Of a stretch of 64,000 nt of DNA, positions 196 through 9,985 are shown piece after piece. The translations under genes were made by a program, and so were the position numbers. Origin of the DNA: Gammaproteobacteria bacterium (lineage in GTDB: Bacteria > Pseudomonadota > Gammaproteobacteria > Pseudomonadales > Halieaceae); the NCBI GenBank assembly GCA_024742415.1, contig JANSYN010000004.1, positions 124,001 to 188,000 on the forward strand, given 5' to 3'. The number at the start of each line of letters is the position of its first letter. The stretch's first letter is position 1. Below the pieces are notes generated by a model. It had not been told where the DNA came from. It saw nothing but the letters and a program-made list of their open reading frames with translations, and ran no database searches.

Positions 196-1731
196 ATGCG
201 CTTATCACCTGTCCTGCCGGCGCTCTTGCTGCTTCTGGGCAGTCTTGTCGCGTTGCCGTCGGCCGCCGCTGGCAAACCCAACATACTGGTCATCTGGGGT
301 GACGATATCGGTATTACTAATATCAGTGCCTACAGCGATGGCATCATGGGCTATCGCACGCCCAACATCGATCGCATCGCCAATGAGGGCATCCGGTTTA
401 CTGACTACTACGGTGACCAGAGTTGTACCGCTGGCCGCTCCAGTTTTATCACCGGTCAAAGCCCCCTGCGTACCGGCCTGAGCAAGGTCGGTCTGCCTGG
501 CGCAGCGCTGGGTTTGCAAGACCGCGACGTGACGATCGCGGAAGTGTTGAAAACCCAGGGCTATGCCACCGGCCAGTTCGGTAAAAACCACCTGGGGGAC
601 AAGGACGAGTTCCTGCCGACGGATCACGGCTTCGACGAGTTTTTTGGCAACCTCTACCACCTGAACGCGGAAGAGGAGCCCGAAGACGTGGATTACCCCA
701 AGGATCCGGCGTTTCGCAAGATGTTTGGTCCGCGCGGCGTGATTCGCTCCTACGCGGATGGGCGGGTGGAAGATACCGGGGCGCTGACACGCAAGCGTAT
801 GGAGACGGTCGATGAAGAATTCGTCGCAGCAGCGCGCAAGTTCATCGATAAATCGGTCAAGGCCGGCACGCCGTTTTTTGTCTGGCTGAACACCACTGGA
901 ATGCATTTTCGCACGCACCCCGCGCCAAAACATATTGGCAAGTCGGGGCAGGATTTTTATAACGACGTGATGGTCGCCCACGACGAACTCGTTGGGCAGA
1001 TGCTGGATCAGCTCGACGCGCTGAAGATTGCTGACAATACGATCGTATTTTACTCCACCGACAACGGCGTGCACTACAACACCTGGCCGGATGCGGGGAT
1101 AACCCCGTTCCGCAGCGAAAAGAACTCCAACTGGGAGGGTGCCTACCGGGTGCCGGCCGTGGTGCGCTGGCCGGCGCAGATTGCGCCGGGCCAGGTCTCG
1201 AATGCTGTCATGTCTCACCTGGACTGGATGCCGACACTGGCGGCCGCAGCCGGCGACGCTAACCTGAAGGCGGAGCTTCTCAAGGGTCGCCAGATCGGTT
1301 CGAAACGGTCGCGGCTGCACCTGGACGGCTATAACTTTCTGCCGTTTCTCGTTGGACAGACCACCCAGTCGCCGCGCCGCGAGTTTATCTATCATTCGGA
1401 CGAGGGCATGCCGGTGGGTGTGCGCGTGGACGATTGGAAGATCGTCTATGCCGAGAACCGTGCTCGCACCATGGCGTTGTGGGCAGAGCCGTTTGTCACA
1501 CTGCGCATGTTTAAAATTTTCCATTTGCGGCGTGACCCCTACGAGCGTGCAGACCTGAATTCCAACACCTACTGGGACTGGATGATCGACAAGGCCGCCC
1601 AGGGCTATCGTGGTTCTGCGGTAACCACTCGTTACCTGCAGACCTTCAAGGCGTTTCCACCGAGTCAGCGGCCGGATTCATGGTCGATAGACAAGCTGAC
1701 AGATCGCTTCCTGAACTTTGACAAGCAATGA
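196..1731 (+). CDS. Exported sulfatase (arylsulfatase family)
   Basis: Hydrolyses sulfate esters, probably in the periplasm. The 511-residue product begins with a cleavable signal peptide (hydrophobic residues 8-20, small residues around 22-25). Metal-binding Asp36-Asp37 sit in the VIWGDDIG motif. C77-T-A-G-R81 is the sulfatase signature in which Cys is converted to formylglycine. FGKNHLGD and STDNG are further family motifs. The reading frame is open from 40, but the ATG at 196 has a GGGAG box 8-12 bases upstream and places the signal peptide at the N-terminus. No dedicated formylglycine-generating enzyme is in the window. The substrate is unknown; sulfated sterols or polysaccharides are possible. 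Confidence 0.93.
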   Translation: MRLSPVLPALLLLLGSLVALPSAAAGKPNILVIWGDDIGITNISAYSDGIMGYRTPNIDRIANEGIRFTDYYGDQSCTAGRSSFITGQSPLRTGLSKVGLPGAALGLQDRDVTIAEVLKTQGYATGQFGKNHLGDKDEFLPTDHGFDEFFGNLYHLNAEEEPEDVDYPKDPAFRKMFGPRGVIRSYADGRVEDTGALTRKRMETVDEEFVAAARKFIDKSVKAGTPFFVWLNTTGMHFRTHPAPKHIGKSGQDFYNDVMVAHDELVGQMLDQLDALKIADNTIVFYSTDNGVHYNTWPDAGITPFRSEKNSNWEGAYRVPAVVRWPAQIAPGQVSNAVMSHLDWMPTLAAAAGDANLKAELLKGRQIGSKRSRLHLDGYNFLPFLVGQTTQSPRREFIYHSDEGMPVGVRVDDWKIVYAENRARTMALWAEPFVTLRMFKIFHLRRDPYERADLNSNTYWDWMIDKAAQGYRGSAVTTRYLQTFKAFPPSQRPDSWSIDKLTDRFLNFDKQ

Positions 1732-2703: not shown

Positions 2704-3060
2704 CTAACTCTTGAAATTCTCCGGCCCCCAGTAGGCCTTCATGTCGATGATCTTGCCGTCATCGTTGAAGTAAAAAACATCGATGATGTCGATCGTGCTG
2801 TCCCCCATCAAGACCTGGAACGGGAACGCAGCGGCGGTGCCGGCGCAGCGCACGTCACCGGTCAACTTGAGTTTGGCGCCCGAGCTGAGTGCGTTTTCGT
2901 AGAAAGCGCAGATCGCCTCGATACCCTCATGCAGGTCGGTACCCACCGGATCCTCCACCCGGGCGTCAGCGGCGAACAGGTCTTTGATGATATTGATGTC
3001 CTGCGTGGCGAAGGCCTCCACGTAGCGGTGTACTGCGTTGATCTTGTCGCTGACTTCCAT
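2704..3060 (-). CDS. Ketosteroid isomerase-like (steroid Delta-isomerase, NTF2 fold)
   Basis: A 118-residue single-domain protein. It aligns by eye along its length with bacterial 3-oxo-Delta5-steroid isomerase. Y13 in RYV, D37 in VEDPVGT and D94 in IDIIDVF correspond to the catalytic Tyr14, Asp38 and Asp99 of the Comamonas enzyme. The KAYWGPEN ending is also typical. The family moves a double bond in conjugation with a ketone. An AGGAGA box lies upstream of the ATG. It is the last gene of a leftward operon with two acyl-CoA dehydrogenases, supporting steroid or isoprenoid catabolism. All three catalytic residues are present, so activity is plausible, but SnoaL-type proteins share the fold. 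Confidence 0.85.
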   Translation of the reverse strand: MEVSDKINAVHRYVEAFATQDINIIKDLFAADARVEDPVGTDLHEGIEAICAFYENALSSGAKLKLTGDVRCAGTAAAFPFQVLMGDSTIDIIDVFYFNDDGKIIDMKAYWGPENFKS

Positions 3061-3074
3061 TGGCTAATCTCCTG

Positions 3075-4214
3075 TTAGTATCCGCAAAGGCGGGCGTAGC
3101 GATCTTTGTGAAAGCCGGTATCACCCAGGATTTGAATGGCCACGCGCGCACGCTTGAGAAAGAAACCGATCTCCAGAGCATCGGTGACGCCAATACCGCC
3201 ATGCATTTGCACGGCCTCGTTGGTGGTTAGTGTGACCAGGTCATTCAGTCTGGCCTTGGCCAGGCTCGCCAGCAGCGGTAGTTGCTCGGGTGTTTCATCA
3301 ACGGCGGACAGCGCCTGCAGCATGACGGATCGACACAGCTCGATCTCCGACTGCATATGTGCCGCGCGGTGCTGCAGGGCCTGAAAGCTGCCAATCAATG
3401 CGCCGAACTGCTCGCGCTCCTTCAGATACTGCACAGTGCGCTCAAAGCACTCCAGCGCATAGCCCATCATTTCCGCGGCAATGGCGATGCGGCCGCGATC
3501 CAGCAGGGCTTCAAGAAACGTCCAGGCCTTGCCGTTTTCACCCAGCAGGTCGGCGCTGTCAATGTGTACATCTTCGAACGCGATGTTCGCCGCGTTGCGG
3601 CTGTCGGCCATGAAGGTGCGCTCTACACTGACGCCGTCGGCGCTGCGATCGACCAGGAACAGGCTTAGCCCCTCTGTGTCGTTGGTGTCGCCCGAGACGC
3701 GCGCAACCACAAGCAGTTTGTCGGCGCTGTGTCCGTCCAGCACAAAGCACTTCTTGCCGTTGATGACATAGCCATTGGCCGTTTCGCCGGCAGTAGTAGC
3801 GATGTGTGTGGGCCTGTGGTGGTGTGTTTCCTCAAGGGCAAGCGCCAGCGTCAGCTCACCGCTGGCGATGGCCGGCAGCAGCGCCTGTTTCTGTGCGTCG
3901 TTGCCCGCCAGAAGCAGTGCAGAGGCGCCCAGCACGGCCGAAGCGAATAGCGGCGATGCCGCCAGAGTACGACCCGACTCTTCCAGTACCACGCCCAGGC
4001 CAGTGAAGCCGAAGTCGGCGCCGCCATAGTCCTCGGGCAAAATAATCCCGGCCCAGCCCATTTGCGCCATTGCCTGCCACAGTTGCGTGGAGTAACCCGT
4101 CGCGTCTTTGCTGTCGCGCAGTTTGCGCAGTGCTTCTACAGGCGCGTTCTCGCTAAAGAAACTACGTGCGGTGTCCTGCAGGAAGCGTTGTTCTTCATTC
4201 AATACCAGGCTCAT
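3075..4214 (-). CDS. Acyl-CoA dehydrogenase, subunit lacking an obvious catalytic Glu
   Basis: A 379-residue flavoprotein of the acyl-CoA dehydrogenase fold: N-terminal helices (1-120), beta domain (120-230, ending AFEDVHI), and a C-terminal helical domain with REQFGALIGSFQALQH and VQMHGGIGVTD. The usual catalytic Glu positions are not occupied. The C-terminal YEGT equivalent reads ILGDT (362-366), and the helix-G position reads LLDRGR (237-242). It starts 2 bases after the stop of the other dehydrogenase with its own GGAG site. Adjacent dissimilar dehydrogenases forming heterotetramers are known for cholesterol side-chain enzymes such as FadE28-FadE29 of Mycobacterium. The same arrangement is inferred here. 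Confidence 0.9.
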   Translation of the reverse strand: MSLVLNEEQRFLQDTARSFFSENAPVEALRKLRDSKDATGYSTQLWQAMAQMGWAGIILPEDYGGADFGFTGLGVVLEESGRTLAASPLFASAVLGASALLLAGNDAQKQALLPAIASGELTLALALEETHHHRPTHIATTAGETANGYVINGKKCFVLDGHSADKLLVVARVSGDTNDTEGLSLFLVDRSADGVSVERTFMADSRNAANIAFEDVHIDSADLLGENGKAWTFLEALLDRGRIAIAAEMMGYALECFERTVQYLKEREQFGALIGSFQALQHRAAHMQSEIELCRSVMLQALSAVDETPEQLPLLASLAKARLNDLVTLTTNEAVQMHGGIGVTDALEIGFFLKRARVAIQILGDTGFHKDRYARLCGY

Positions 4215-4216
4215 AG

Positions 4217-5413
4217 TCAGGACTCCCCGCCCTGTGGCAGTTCAAGCACGTTCTTGGCAATGACGTTCAGCTGGATCTCTGACGTGCCGCCGGCGATGGT
4301 CATTGCATAGCTCATGGCCCATAACCGGGTGGTGTCGATTTCTGACTGGGTGAAGGCGTCGCCTTCCCAGCCGACGCCGCGGCTGCCCATGATGGCCAGC
4401 AGCAGTTCGCTCTTGGCTTTTTCCGCCTCGGTGCCTACGTACTTCATGATGAGAGGCGCAGCGCTGCGTATGCCGGCGATCTTTTCCTCAAAGGTGCGGA
4501 AGTGAGTGAGTCCCACCGCGTGCATCTGCATGTCGTAGTCCACCAGGCGGCTGCGTAGTTCAGCGTCGACAATCTTGCCGTCGTCAAACTCCAGGTACTC
4601 GCGCGCGGCGGTGTTGGGAACAAGCACGTGGCGCGGGGAGTCGCTGCCAATCTCGGACATCAGTTTGCGCTCATGCACCAGTAGCGCCTTGGCGACAGAC
4701 CAGCCTTCATTGAGTTTGCCAACGAGGTTCTCCTTGGGTACGCGCACCGCGTCGAAAAAGGTCTGGCAGAACTCGGATTCACCGCTGATCAACTCAATGG
4801 GAGTGGTGCTGACGCCCGGGTCATCCATGTCGATGAGCAGGAAACTGATACCCTCCTGTTTTTTGGCATCTGGATCAGTGCGCACCAGGCAGAAGATCCA
4901 ATCGCATTCGTCGGCTTTGGTTGTCCAGATTTTACTGCCAGTGACCAGGAAGTGATCGCCGATGTCCTCGGCCTTGCACTGCAAGCTGGCAAGGTCCGAG
5001 CCAGAGCCCGGTTCCGAATAGCCCTGGCACCAGCGTGTTTCTCCATTGACGATGGCACGCAGGTGTTTTTGCTTCTGTGCTTCCGTACCGTATTCCAGCA
5101 ACGCGGGCCCAAGCATCCACAGCCCGAGGCCAAAAATAGGCTTGCGCGCGTTGATCTTCTTCATTTCCTCGGTGATGATTTTGGCTTGCTGGGGCGACAG
5201 ATCGGCGCCGCCGTAAGCAGCGGGCCACTCCGGTGCGATCCAGCCCTTGTCGCGCATCCGTTCAAACCACAGGCGCGCATCTTCGCTGGCAAAGCTCCCG
5301 TTGCGGCCGCCCCAGTACTGCTCCTGGGCTTGCATGGGCTCGCGTTGCGAGGCGGGACAGTTTTCTTCAAGCCACTGGCTGACGTGCTGCCTAAATTGTT
5401 CCAGATCTTCCAA
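4217..5413 (-). CDS. Acyl-CoA dehydrogenase, probable catalytic subunit
   Basis: A 398-residue acyl-CoA dehydrogenase with GYSEPGSGSDLASL (131-144, flavin contact) and FDAVRVPKENLVG (220-232). IAGGTSEIQ (373-381) occupies the place where medium-chain enzymes have the catalytic Glu, and here it is Gly. Instead H247-E248-R-K places a Glu where isovaleryl-CoA dehydrogenase has its base (LDLER motif). Translation appears to start at TTG 5413, supported by a CGGGAG site 7 bases upstream; no better ATG is near. It is first in a tight operon with the second dehydrogenase and the isomerase-like gene. The substrate is probably a bulky acyl-CoA, such as a steroid side chain, but this is inferred. Confidence 0.9.
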   Translation of the reverse strand: MEDLEQFRQHVSQWLEENCPASQREPMQAQEQYWGGRNGSFASEDARLWFERMRDKGWIAPEWPAAYGGADLSPQQAKIITEEMKKINARKPIFGLGLWMLGPALLEYGTEAQKQKHLRAIVNGETRWCQGYSEPGSGSDLASLQCKAEDIGDHFLVTGSKIWTTKADECDWIFCLVRTDPDAKKQEGISFLLIDMDDPGVSTTPIELISGESEFCQTFFDAVRVPKENLVGKLNEGWSVAKALLVHERKLMSEIGSDSPRHVLVPNTAAREYLEFDDGKIVDAELRSRLVDYDMQMHAVGLTHFRTFEEKIAGIRSAAPLIMKYVGTEAEKAKSELLLAIMGSRGVGWEGDAFTQSEIDTTRLWAMSYAMTIAGGTSEIQLNVIAKNVLELPQGGES

Positions 5414-5692: not shown

Positions 5693-6442
5693 ATGCAGCG
5701 ATTCTCAAACAAGGTGGCATTGATAACAGGCTCCGCTGGCGGCATCGGCAAGGCGGCCGCGCAACGCATTGCCCAGGAGGGCGGCGCGGTGTTCTGTGTT
5801 GACCTCAATGAAGCCGCGGTGCAGGCAACGGTTGCCGAAATCACCCAGGCCGGCGGCGATGCGACGGCGTATGCCTGCGACGTTAGCGATGAAAGCAGTG
5901 TGCAGGCGTGTATCGAAGCCTGTGTGGCAAAGTACGGTGCGATCTACGCGCTGGTGAATATGGCGGGCATTCTGCGCTTTGACGATACCTGTGCGCTGCA
6001 CAGCACTGACTGGCAGCGCGTTATCGATATCAACCTCACCGGTACCATGTACCTCTGCCGCGCTGCCCTGCCGCACCTGATCGAGAGTCAGGGCAGTATT
6101 GTCAACGCGGCTTCAACGGCTGCGCTGTCTGGCCTGCCCTGTGGCCTGGCCTATTCCGCCAGCAAAGGCGGCGTATTGGCGATGACGCGCAGCATCGCGG
6201 TTGAGTACGCCAAGCGTGGCGTGCGCGCCAATTGTATTTGTCCGGGTGATATCAAAACCGATATGGCAAAGGGCATCGCCTTTCCCGACAGCATGGACTG
6301 GGATTTAATGCCCCGCATACAGTCCATCAGCGGCCCCAAGGGCGCGGAGACCGTGGCTGGCGTGATCGCCATGCTGGCATCGGAAGATGGCGTGCACATC
6401 ACCGGTGAGGATATCCGTGTTGATGGCGGCACGCTCTCCTGA
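5693..6442 (+). CDS. SDR family oxidoreductase
   Basis: A 249-residue classical short-chain dehydrogenase. It has TGSAGGIG at 12-19 for the NAD(P) cofactor and VNMAG (88-92) in place of the usual NNAG. N114, S141, Y154 and K158 (YSASK) form the catalytic tetrad. D37 after the second strand suggests NAD preference. It ends in the usual ITGEDIRVDGG pattern. It is divergent from the acyl-CoA dehydrogenase operon across a 279-base spacer and convergent with the HtrA gene. A hydroxy-to-keto oxidation in the same catabolic route is inferred; the substrate cannot be read from sequence. Confidence 0.92.
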   Translation: MQRFSNKVALITGSAGGIGKAAAQRIAQEGGAVFCVDLNEAAVQATVAEITQAGGDATAYACDVSDESSVQACIEACVAKYGAIYALVNMAGILRFDDTCALHSTDWQRVIDINLTGTMYLCRAALPHLIESQGSIVNAASTAALSGLPCGLAYSASKGGVLAMTRSIAVEYAKRGVRANCICPGDIKTDMAKGIAFPDSMDWDLMPRIQSISGPKGAETVAGVIAMLASEDGVHITGEDIRVDGGTLS

Positions 6443-8465: not shown

Positions 8466-9236
8466 ATGGGAAGAGTAGAGGGCAAGGTCGCCATTGTCAC
8501 CGGCGCAGCAAGCGGTATGGGCAAGGCAGATGCGTTGTTGCTGGCCCGTGAAGGGGCAAGCGTGGTCGTGACCGACATGAATGCCACCGATGGACAGGCA
8601 GTGGCAGACAGCATCGGGGGCAAGGCAGTCTTCATGACCCTGAATGTTACGGATGAGGACAACTGGAAGCAGGTCATCAGCAGCACGCTGGAGGTGTTTG
8701 GACGCCTGGATATTCTGGTGAATAACGCCGGCATGATCGCGCTCGGCTCGATCGTCGATACCGAACTGGCGGACTGGCGCAAGATTAACGCCGTGAACAG
8801 CGACGGCGTCTTCCTGGGATGCAAGCACGCCATCCCGGCCATGGCTGCCTCGGGTGGTGGCTCGATCGTTAACATGTCGTCGGTGGCGGCGATTCACGGG
8901 CAGTCTTTCGTCGCAGCCTACACGGCAAGCAAGGGTGCCGTGCGCGCGTTGACCAAGAACGTGGCGATGTTTTGCAAGGAACAGAAGAACGGCATACGTT
9001 GCAACTCGGTGCACCCGGACGGTGTGAAAACGCCCATGGTGGTGAAGGTCGCAACCGGCAAGGACACAGCCACGCAGGAAGACCTGGACCGCCTCAATGG
9101 TCTGGACAACATGTGTGAGCCCGAAGACGTCGCCAATCTCGTGTTGTTCCTGGCCTCGGATGAGTCACGATTTATCAATGGCGCCGAAATGCTCATAGAC
9201 AACGCATCGACCATCACTCCCCCCGTCGGCGTTTGA
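8466..9236 (+). CDS. SDR family oxidoreductase (hydroxysteroid/cyclopentanol dehydrogenase-like)
   Basis: A 256-residue classical SDR: TGAASGMG (12-19), D37 for NAD preference, NNAG (86-89), S138-S139, Y152 and K156. The GMG glycine motif, the NSDGVFLGCKHAIPAM helix and the VHPDGVKTPM loop resemble 3-alpha/20-beta-hydroxysteroid and cyclopentanol dehydrogenases, so a ring or secondary alcohol substrate is likely. A GGAGAG site precedes the ATG. Its stop lies 29 bases upstream of the EthD-like gene, so they probably form an operon. Confidence 0.92.
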   Translation: MGRVEGKVAIVTGAASGMGKADALLLAREGASVVVTDMNATDGQAVADSIGGKAVFMTLNVTDEDNWKQVISSTLEVFGRLDILVNNAGMIALGSIVDTELADWRKINAVNSDGVFLGCKHAIPAMAASGGGSIVNMSSVAAIHGQSFVAAYTASKGAVRALTKNVAMFCKEQKNGIRCNSVHPDGVKTPMVVKVATGKDTATQEDLDRLNGLDNMCEPEDVANLVLFLASDESRFINGAEMLIDNASTITPPVGV

Positions 9237-9265
9237 TGCGCCGCGACAGGCCTGAGGAACGCATT

Positions 9266-9985
9266 ATGGAAAAAATCATGTACAGTTTGTGGCGTGATCA
9301 AGCGCTGGCACAGGACACCTTTCGCGATCAACTGCTGGCCGCATTGACCGCGAACCTTGACGGCCTGGCCGGTGTGCATGGTGCGCGCCTGTGCGTTGCC
9401 GACAGCGCTGTGGCAGCGGCGAATGGGCGGCGTATGCAAAGTGGTGAATCGCTACCCGATGCAGTGCTGTCACTGTGGGTCGATGACGCCGGGCAGTCAC
9501 AGGGCTGGGAAGCCCTGATCGATGCGCAGGCGGCGCGTTGTGAGGGCTACCTGGTGGCCGAGGCAGAACCGCTGATTAATCAACAGGCGCATCCATCGGC
9601 ACCGGCAGCGCGCGTGTACGGAATGTGTCATGTGGTGTATATGAGCCCACCGGCGGCAATGGACAGGGAAGAATGGCTGGCGGTGTGGAAGGGCAGCCAT
9701 ACACAGATTGCGATCGACACACAGTCAACCTTCGGCTATCGCCAGAACGTGGTGGTGCGCCTGCTGGGACCGGATACGCCGGCGTGTCATGCGATCGTTG
9801 AGGAAAATTTCCCGCCCGAAGCCATGACCGATGATCACGCTTTTTATGCTACGGGCGGCGACGAGACACTCCTGCAGAAGAACATGGCAGCCATGATGGA
9901 GAGCTGCGCGCGCTTCATTGATTTCAACAGGATTGACGTCATCCCGATGAGCGAATACCTGCTCAAAGCGCTTGTAAGGCCTTGA
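9266..9985 (+). CDS. EthD domain-like protein (dimeric alpha/beta barrel)
   Basis: A 239-residue protein without signal peptide or membrane segment. The second half (about 120-239) contains the recognisable pattern [16 protein letters not shown], then [14 protein letters not shown] and a [10 protein letters not shown] helix. These are features of EthD-related ferredoxin-like barrel proteins found in catabolic clusters of actinobacteria and proteobacteria. The first half looks like a diverged copy of the same fold. The start at ATG 9266 follows TGAGGA; the frame also offers TTG 9233, which is less likely. Its 3' end overlaps the convergent htpX by 23 bases. The catalytic role is unknown. Confidence 0.7.

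Follow-up and report, generated by a model that had tools for sequence, protein, structure and literature searches.

A three-gene operon in a Halieaceae bacterium encodes a predicted heteromeric acyl-CoA dehydrogenase, probably for steroid side chains, together with a ketosteroid isomerase

In a 64,000-nucleotide stretch of DNA from a gammaproteobacterium of the Halieaceae (the window; GenBank assembly GCA_024742415.1, contig JANSYN010000004.1, positions 124,001–188,000 of the forward strand), open reading frame (ORF) calls place three genes in a row on the minus strand, between window positions 5413 and 2704. In order of transcription, they encode two unlike acyl-coenzyme A (acyl-CoA) dehydrogenases (ACADs), here called L and S, and a ketosteroid isomerase (KSI; Table 1). 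L and S are separated by 2 bases, as a first-pass annotation of the sequence had noted and as the ORF coordinates confirm, and S and KSI by 14 bases, an arrangement typical of an operon. The probable start codon of L is a TTG, with GGGAG, read by eye, upstream of it. The source genome measures 4.14 Mb in 27 contigs and is 99.65% complete.

Table 1. Genes of the operon and associated neighbouring genes in the window
Feature	Coordinates	Strand	Remarks
ACAD subunit L (predicted catalytic; flavin-side half of the flavin adenine dinucleotide (FAD) site)	4217..5413	minus	398 aa, E248
ACAD subunit S (predicted non-catalytic; adenosine monophosphate (AMP)-side half of the FAD site)	3075..4214	minus	379 aa
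Ketosteroid isomerase (KSI)	2704..3060	minus	118 aa, Y13/D37/D94
Short-chain dehydrogenase/reductase (SDR), divergent from L	5693..6442	plus	conserved neighbour
Second SDR, associated, looser linkage	8466..9236	plus	homologues in related loci
Conserved protein, EthD-like by eye only	9233..9985	plus	250 aa; conservation near operon

As relatives of the operon, we took the 80 best-scoring loci in GTDB contigs, most of them labelled Halieaceae or its genera Halioglobus, Seongchinamella, Haliea and Parahaliea, followed by Spongiibacteraceae and Porticoccaceae, which puts the source genome in the Halieaceae; the L and S sets exclude matches that cover fewer than 220 query positions. L reads IAGGT near its C-terminus and carries an HER motif whose Glu is residue 248, a residue that lines up in phmmer with the HER Glu of both 4x28_A (ChsE4) and 6wy9_A (Tcur3483). 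All L rows of the relatives have Glu here (81 of 81); at the C-terminal site, 80 of them read Gly and the remaining one has a gap. S reads LLDRGR in the helix-G region and ILGDT near the C-terminus, and there is no Glu at either base site in its 76 rows: at helix G the residue is Gly, Ala or Ser (62/12/2), and at the C-terminal position 75 rows have Gly and one is gapped. The first-pass annotation had seen a Glu at helix G in the upstream dehydrogenase and none at either base position of the downstream one, and both descriptions hold for the relatives as well; a competent Glu in both subunits is not seen in the sequences, S being without one.

The elements that bind FAD are likewise divided. 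L keeps the flavin-side loop YSEPGSGSD (YSEPGxGSD in relatives) and the strand KIWTT (KIWT), and its RxxFG...Q and HGGxG motifs are lost. In S the TEPxxGSD loop is gone, R267, F270 and Q278 are retained in 76/76 rows, and HGGxG in 75 of the 76, with a gap in the last. Both motif sets are present in one chain in the homomeric ACAD 5ol2_C. We take the YSEPGxGSD and KIWT motifs to contact the flavin end of FAD and the Arg/Phe/Gln and HGGxG elements to contact the AMP end, so that the split between L and S would leave each L-S dimer with a single complete FAD site and a single base. Judging from these motifs, L-S is very likely a heteromeric, single-base ACAD, and its two subunits would very likely have a single FAD site in common in each dimer, like those of the known α2β2 steroid ACADs. 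This division of the FAD motifs, read from the two sequences, reaches beyond what the first-pass annotation had claimed.

Genomic pairing and paired divergence are in accordance with a joint complex. In 78 of the 80 related loci a complete or partial S comes immediately after L, the exceptions being L115 and L120 (contig end), and the distances of L and S rise together, with r = 0.95 over the 92 pairs from all loci, a figure inflated by shared ancestry, and r = 0.86 (Mantel p = 2e-4) among 10 of 11 pairs within the source genome, a comparison less inflated by ancestry; the remaining pair (locus L008, 9743/11015) lies outside this test because its S is absent from the S set. That L and S are instead two separate, ordinary homomeric ACADs that happen to sit side by side is, in our judgement, highly improbable: S lies at much the same distance from homomeric ACADs and from Tcur3481 (140, 138 and 137 bits), and other β-oxidation ACADs are described as homotetramers or homodimers in the relevant passages of PMC6678751, but S is without the catalytic Glu and the flavin-side loop, L is without the AMP-side motifs, and the two diverge together.

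In the source genome as a whole, the ACAD N-terminal domain is matched 48 times, and L/S-like pairs of neighbouring genes number at least 11, the window pair included. They lie on contigs C1, C5, C10, C12, C16, C18, C24, C25 and C26 (window and loci L008–L020) and make up a large set of probable heteromeric ACADs, most of them without an assigned substrate.

The AlphaFold2 monomer model of S has a predicted local distance difference test score (pLDDT) of 93.0 and matches Tcur3481 in Foldseek at rank 2 (E = 3.5e-25; template modelling (TM) scores 0.89/0.92), and it fits ordinary ACADs about equally well (VIA Z 45.7 to 49.3 over the best 50 entries, with Tcur3481 at 46.2, rank 36). The monomer model of L is poor (pLDDT 79.8, TM 0.58), with pLDDT below 50 in parts of the FAD loop (134–143) and of the C-terminus; its top six Foldseek matches are chains of Tcur3481-Tcur3483, Fic32-33 and ChsE4-ChsE5 (query TM 0.55–0.58), a ranking that we treat as supporting only because the model is weak.

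The product of the third gene aligns best with steroid isomerases, at phmmer E = 4e-19 to the steroid delta-isomerase 1ocv (46 of 108 aligned residues identical) and E = 9e-22 to 6p3l (51 of 112). Among the best 60 of its 79 phmmer matches, 6p3l and 6p44 come first and the rest are steroid or ketosteroid isomerases; 6p3l and 6p44 were named ‘SnoaL-like’ by their depositors, and we take both to be KSIs. The catalytic triad of KSIs is Tyr14, Asp38 and Asp99 in standard numbering, and Y13, D37 and D94 of the window protein align with Tyr/Asp/Asp of 1ocv. 1ocv and 6p3l are of similar length to the window KSI and both keep the residues equivalent to Y13 and D37; D94 is Asp in 1ocv and Ser in 6p3l, a choice at the second-Asp site that is reportedly linked to growth temperature. 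The first-pass annotation's observation that the isomerase-like protein keeps Y13, D37 and D94 extends to all relatives, with the triad found in 78 of 78 rows of an alignment that excludes tblastn matches below 80 residues and the window copies L025 and L027. Curated models are of little help, the Pfam matches being SnoaL_2 (50 bits) and NTF2 (24 bits), and we considered a grouping with unrelated SnoaL proteins, a possibility raised at first pass, but rejected it because steroid and ketosteroid isomerases dominate the phmmer matches. KSI is the single match to itself in the source genome at E = 1e-10, where SnoaL_2-domain matches number 9. Novosphingobium aromaticivorans pNL2 and Sphingobium herbicidovorans have homologues at about 50% identity in their ring-degradation clusters.

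The link between KSI and the dehydrogenase pair is itself conserved. Counted by tblastn, KSI comes after S in 40 of the 41 loci with the highest scores (L057–L097), the other, L079, ending inside S, and adjoins S in 0 of the 39 loci L098–L136. Within the Halieaceae clade, the order L-S-KSI is present in 40 of 45 named loci, absent from 3 (L098, which is a second copy in Parahaliea maris, L099 and L119) and cut off in 2 (L079 and L120). It should be noted that the counts of EchA20-like, IpdC-like and KshA-type genes given below are lower bounds and that some loci are cut by contig ends. One related locus, L113, comes from a metagenome-assembled genome labelled Klebsiella pneumoniae; it is 62% identical and groups with uncultured gammaproteobacteria, and the label is probably wrong.

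Three lineages surround the window L in a maximum-likelihood tree (quick search, 104 rows, with several deeper joins on long branches flagged by the program): one with the Halieaceae loci, of 52 rows, and two more of Porticoccaceae/Luminiphilus type (15 rows) and of Spongiibacteraceae type (14 rows). Among the 15 loci of the Porticoccaceae/Luminiphilus type, EchA20-like and IpdC-like genes occur in 10, a gene for a KshA-type Rieske protein in 7 and a KSI gene, on the other strand, in 6. Behind these names stand a Rieske protein of the source genome that scores above the KshA_C cut-off and is 75% identical to the Rieske protein of locus L124, matches to PRK07938 (above its cut-off) and to the Pfam family NMO, and gene context. 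A CoA ligase gene lies upstream of L in L121, L124, L128 and L131, all of this type, and the L124 ligase fits best to the CasG steroid-24-oyl-CoA synthetase, at 382 bits, under the cut-off of 750, with FadD3 at 262 bits. In the single-contig genome G001, ring-type ACADs (2.820 and 2.825 Mb), KSI and KshA (2.838 Mb), EchA20 (2.839 Mb) and a window-type L (2.844 Mb) all lie within 25.3 kb.

A cousin pair, with an L 50% identical to that of the window, is found on the Vibrio alfacsensis plasmid pYa108 (locus L138, record 138325–145535), where L and S together close an operon that also encodes a ChsH2-type oligonucleotide/oligosaccharide-binding (OB) protein, MaoC, an Ltp-type thiolase and a ChsE pair. 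The plasmid operon looks igr-like, that is, of the steroid side-chain kind, with two ACAD pairs.

Across 140 genomes of the family, many of them incomplete, KSI is present in 87, of which 75 have KshA and 82 EchA20; in the 53 genomes without KSI, each of the two markers is found in 9. A close L, defined as at least 540 bits, a threshold set by eye to clear a paralogue near 425 bits, is present in 51 of the 140, and these have KSI in 51/51, KshA in 48 and EchA20 in 48, against 36, 36 and 43, respectively, in the other 89. The operon is also present in locus L065, labelled Halioglobus japonicus isolate BC5_1. Going by the names, this is the Halieaceae sponge isolate BC51, for which a passage of PMC5790920 gives growth on cholesterol. 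Considered together with the gene neighbourhoods, a steroid role for L-S with KSI is likely.

From the observed gene order, motif division, paired divergence and partial steroid context, we infer an oligomer, its mode of FAD binding and its substrate. L and S would form an α2β2-type complex in which each L-S dimer has one FAD and one active site. To this, L would contribute E248 as the base, YSEPGSGSD as the loop that contacts the flavin, and the W-T strand, and S the Arg/Phe/Gln and HGGxG elements that would hold the AMP end of FAD. The complex would most likely form an α,β double bond in a steroid side chain activated with CoA, candidate substrates being a C5 steroid-24-oyl-CoA and one with a longer sterol side chain, and pass the electrons to electron-transferring flavoprotein (ETF); KSI would turn a delta5-3-ketosteroid into the delta4-3-ketosteroid. 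With this step encoded in the same operon, A-ring preparation would be joined to side-chain removal. Taken as a whole, the explanation that L-S is an α2β2-type heteromeric steroid side-chain ACAD in an operon with KSI is the one we consider probable. The first-pass annotation had proposed a heteromeric enzyme for a bulky ring-containing acyl-CoA: the heteromer is probable, with one Glu per pair, and the link to KSI and steroid catabolism has gained support, and the bulky, ring-containing nature of the substrate continues to be read from gene context.

L-S might also be a steroid enzyme that acts on the rings, for example on 3aα-H-4α(3'-propanoate)-7aβ-methylhexahydro-1,5-indanedione-CoA (HIP-CoA) or on the late dicarboxylic intermediate methyl-oxo-octanedioyl-CoA, which is handled elsewhere by IpdE1-IpdE2 or FadE31-32. 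Pairs of a neighbouring lineage stand beside EchA20-like and IpdC-like genes; S reaches the IpdE2 model, at 142 bits for a cut-off of 450; and the lineage resembles PimC/PimD, which act on dicarboxyl-CoA according to parts of PMC12543098. However, the ring cluster of the source genome, on contig C24, has two other pairs, and the ring-degradation-type L proteins there (contig C24, locus L008) group with their counterparts from the ring clusters of Novosphingobium pNL2 and Sphingobium, with a Shimodaira-Hasegawa-like approximate likelihood ratio test (SH-aLRT) support of 100. Among 14 chosen genomes, namely the source genome and 13 with an L of the neighbouring lineage, orthologues of the first of these ring-type ACADs (at least 620 bits) occur in 13 and of the second (at least 628 bits) in 12, so that the ring steps look covered; moreover, the L124 ligase is nearer to CasG than to FadD3. 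We regard a ring substrate as unlikely. Because the ring-type pairs exist separately in 13 and 12 of the 14 genomes, a side-chain substrate is favoured, and on balance a steroid side-chain acyl-CoA is the better supposition for L-S.

Several observations weigh against a steroid side-chain role, in addition to the poor model of L and the closeness of S to homomeric ACADs given above. Within the window, no CoA ligase, hydratase or thiolase gene adjoins the operon. NCBIfam matches of KSI are weak and below cut-off; sigma-70 families lead at 27 bits, and the KSI-related TIGR02096 follows at 23 bits. The co-occurrence tests ignore shared ancestry, and the tree does not separate the branching order of the three nearest lineages. 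The Spongiibacteraceae-type lineage keeps L-S with no KSI beside it, and in four genomes of this type KSI lies neither near L-S nor near the tested steroid markers, save for weak matches to a ligase in one genome and to a reductase in a second. Members of the clade on Variovorax and Sulfitobacter plasmids have non-steroid neighbours, and PimCD-like pairs serve dicarboxylic acids in β-proteobacteria, as passages of PMC12543098 have it. The last three points would suit a non-steroid acyl-CoA substrate, such as a dicarboxylic, branched or terpenoid acid, with KSI as a mere passenger of the operon. Against this stand the steroid clusters, including that of G001, in which one of the two nearest lineages is found, the presence of KSI after S in 40 of the 45 named Halieaceae-clade loci and its co-occurrence with a close L in 51 of 51 genomes, and we judge a non-steroid substrate to be slightly less probable still than a ring substrate.

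The first-pass annotation had likened the pair to FadE28-FadE29 of Mycobacterium, and this implied closeness finds no support. The phmmer scores of L are 154 bits for Tcur3483 and 141 for ChsE4, compared with 403 and 397 bits for the ChsE-type subunit from the Vibrio plasmid; ChsE4, Tcur3483, the Vibrio ChsE-type subunit and a protein of the source genome (L013) form one group, SH-aLRT 100, to which the window L does not belong. Orthology with FadE28-FadE29 was rejected on the low bit scores (154 vs 403) and on the tree position outside the ChsE group. The best curated models are PimC for L (274.3 bits, cut-off 623.85) and PimD for S (237.7 bits, cut-off 652.7), scores so far under the cut-offs that we rejected L and S as equivalogs of PimC and PimD. 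Membership of S in the IpdE2 family was rejected on the same kind of comparison (142.4 bits, cut-off 450), and the fused CasC/FadE34 type because L and S are two separate ORFs; that CasC is a fused ACAD is stated in passages of PMC8399759. As far as can be told from these sequence comparisons, the pair belongs to a PimC/PimD-like lineage outside the FadE28-FadE29/ChsE clade. We advance only tentatively, as a rather doubtful proposition, that marine Gammaproteobacteria (Halieaceae and their kin) recruited a heteromeric dehydrogenase of the PimC/PimD type, in place of one related to ChsE or CasC, to carry out a single round of sterol side-chain β-oxidation from a KSI operon; if so, the steroid side-chain ACADs with a split active site would include a second lineage of independent origin.

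Other genes near the operon are conserved to differing degrees. A homologue of the divergent SDR lies just upstream of L in 41 of 41 loci L057–L097, at 62–82% identity, and the protein possibly acts in the same pathway as L-S-KSI; the best 25 of 233 NCBIfam SDR models all score under their cut-offs for it. In the same 41 loci, a homologue of the 250-residue protein is found near the operon in 36 and, counted by eye, together with a homologue of the second SDR (at least 71% identity) in 25; this protein matches no Pfam or NCBIfam family at the limits used, and distant homologues of it lie directly downstream of S in L121 (37%) and L131 (33%). Beyond the KSI end of the operon, the window also contains a sulfatase gene (205–1731, plus strand) with a homologue in 1 of the 41 loci; a tie to sterol sulfates is possible.

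The Halieaceae, a largely marine family, count among the predicted marine steroid degraders, confirmed by one isolate (passages of PMC5790920). In the literature on Halieaceae, sterol degradation and KSI-ACAD that was searched, which left most subscription journals outside, no title or abstract opening names the operon, and the same search met no paper that assigns side-chain enzymes in Halieaceae. If the steroid side-chain reading is correct, the operon is a concrete candidate for one side-chain dehydrogenation step in this family, and the split-active-site plan has served steroid side-chain catabolism in more than one lineage of ACADs; the known plan of such enzymes is itself unchanged by the operon. 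Its enzyme is probably a further member of a type known from cholesterol- and bile-acid-degrading bacteria.

The split plan is known from mycobacteria and has been proposed for pseudomonads and sphingomonads, and one FAD site and one base per dimer have been published for ChsE1/2 and ChsE4/5 (passages of PMC8399759). ChsE1-ChsE2 (FadE28-FadE29), ChsE4-ChsE5 (FadE26-FadE27) and Tcur3481-Tcur3483 are, like the window pair, encoded by two ACAD genes with Glu in one subunit; in ChsE4 and Tcur3483, the catalytic Glu aligns at the same helix-G site as E248, and the division of the FAD site between subunits in the ChsE/Tcur complexes, described in the same source, is one that the motifs of the window pair would fit. 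In contrast to these, the window L falls outside their group, and the source genome has a separate ChsE-like pair (contig C26, L013). PimC and PimD (TIGR03204 and TIGR03203), a large and a small subunit by name, are the nearest curated models over nearly the full length, and PimCD-like heteromers have already been suspected for dicarboxylic acids (passages of PMC12543098); the window pair differs in its context, which is a KSI gene, with steroid genes near part of the relatives. The proteobacterial C5 side-chain ACADs Scd1AB, with StdA1 (Pseudomonas stutzeri Chol1), and Scd4AB, with SclA (sphingomonads), may find a parallel in the four neighbouring-lineage loci with a ligase just upstream of L-S, whereas the window operon has KSI and no ligase.

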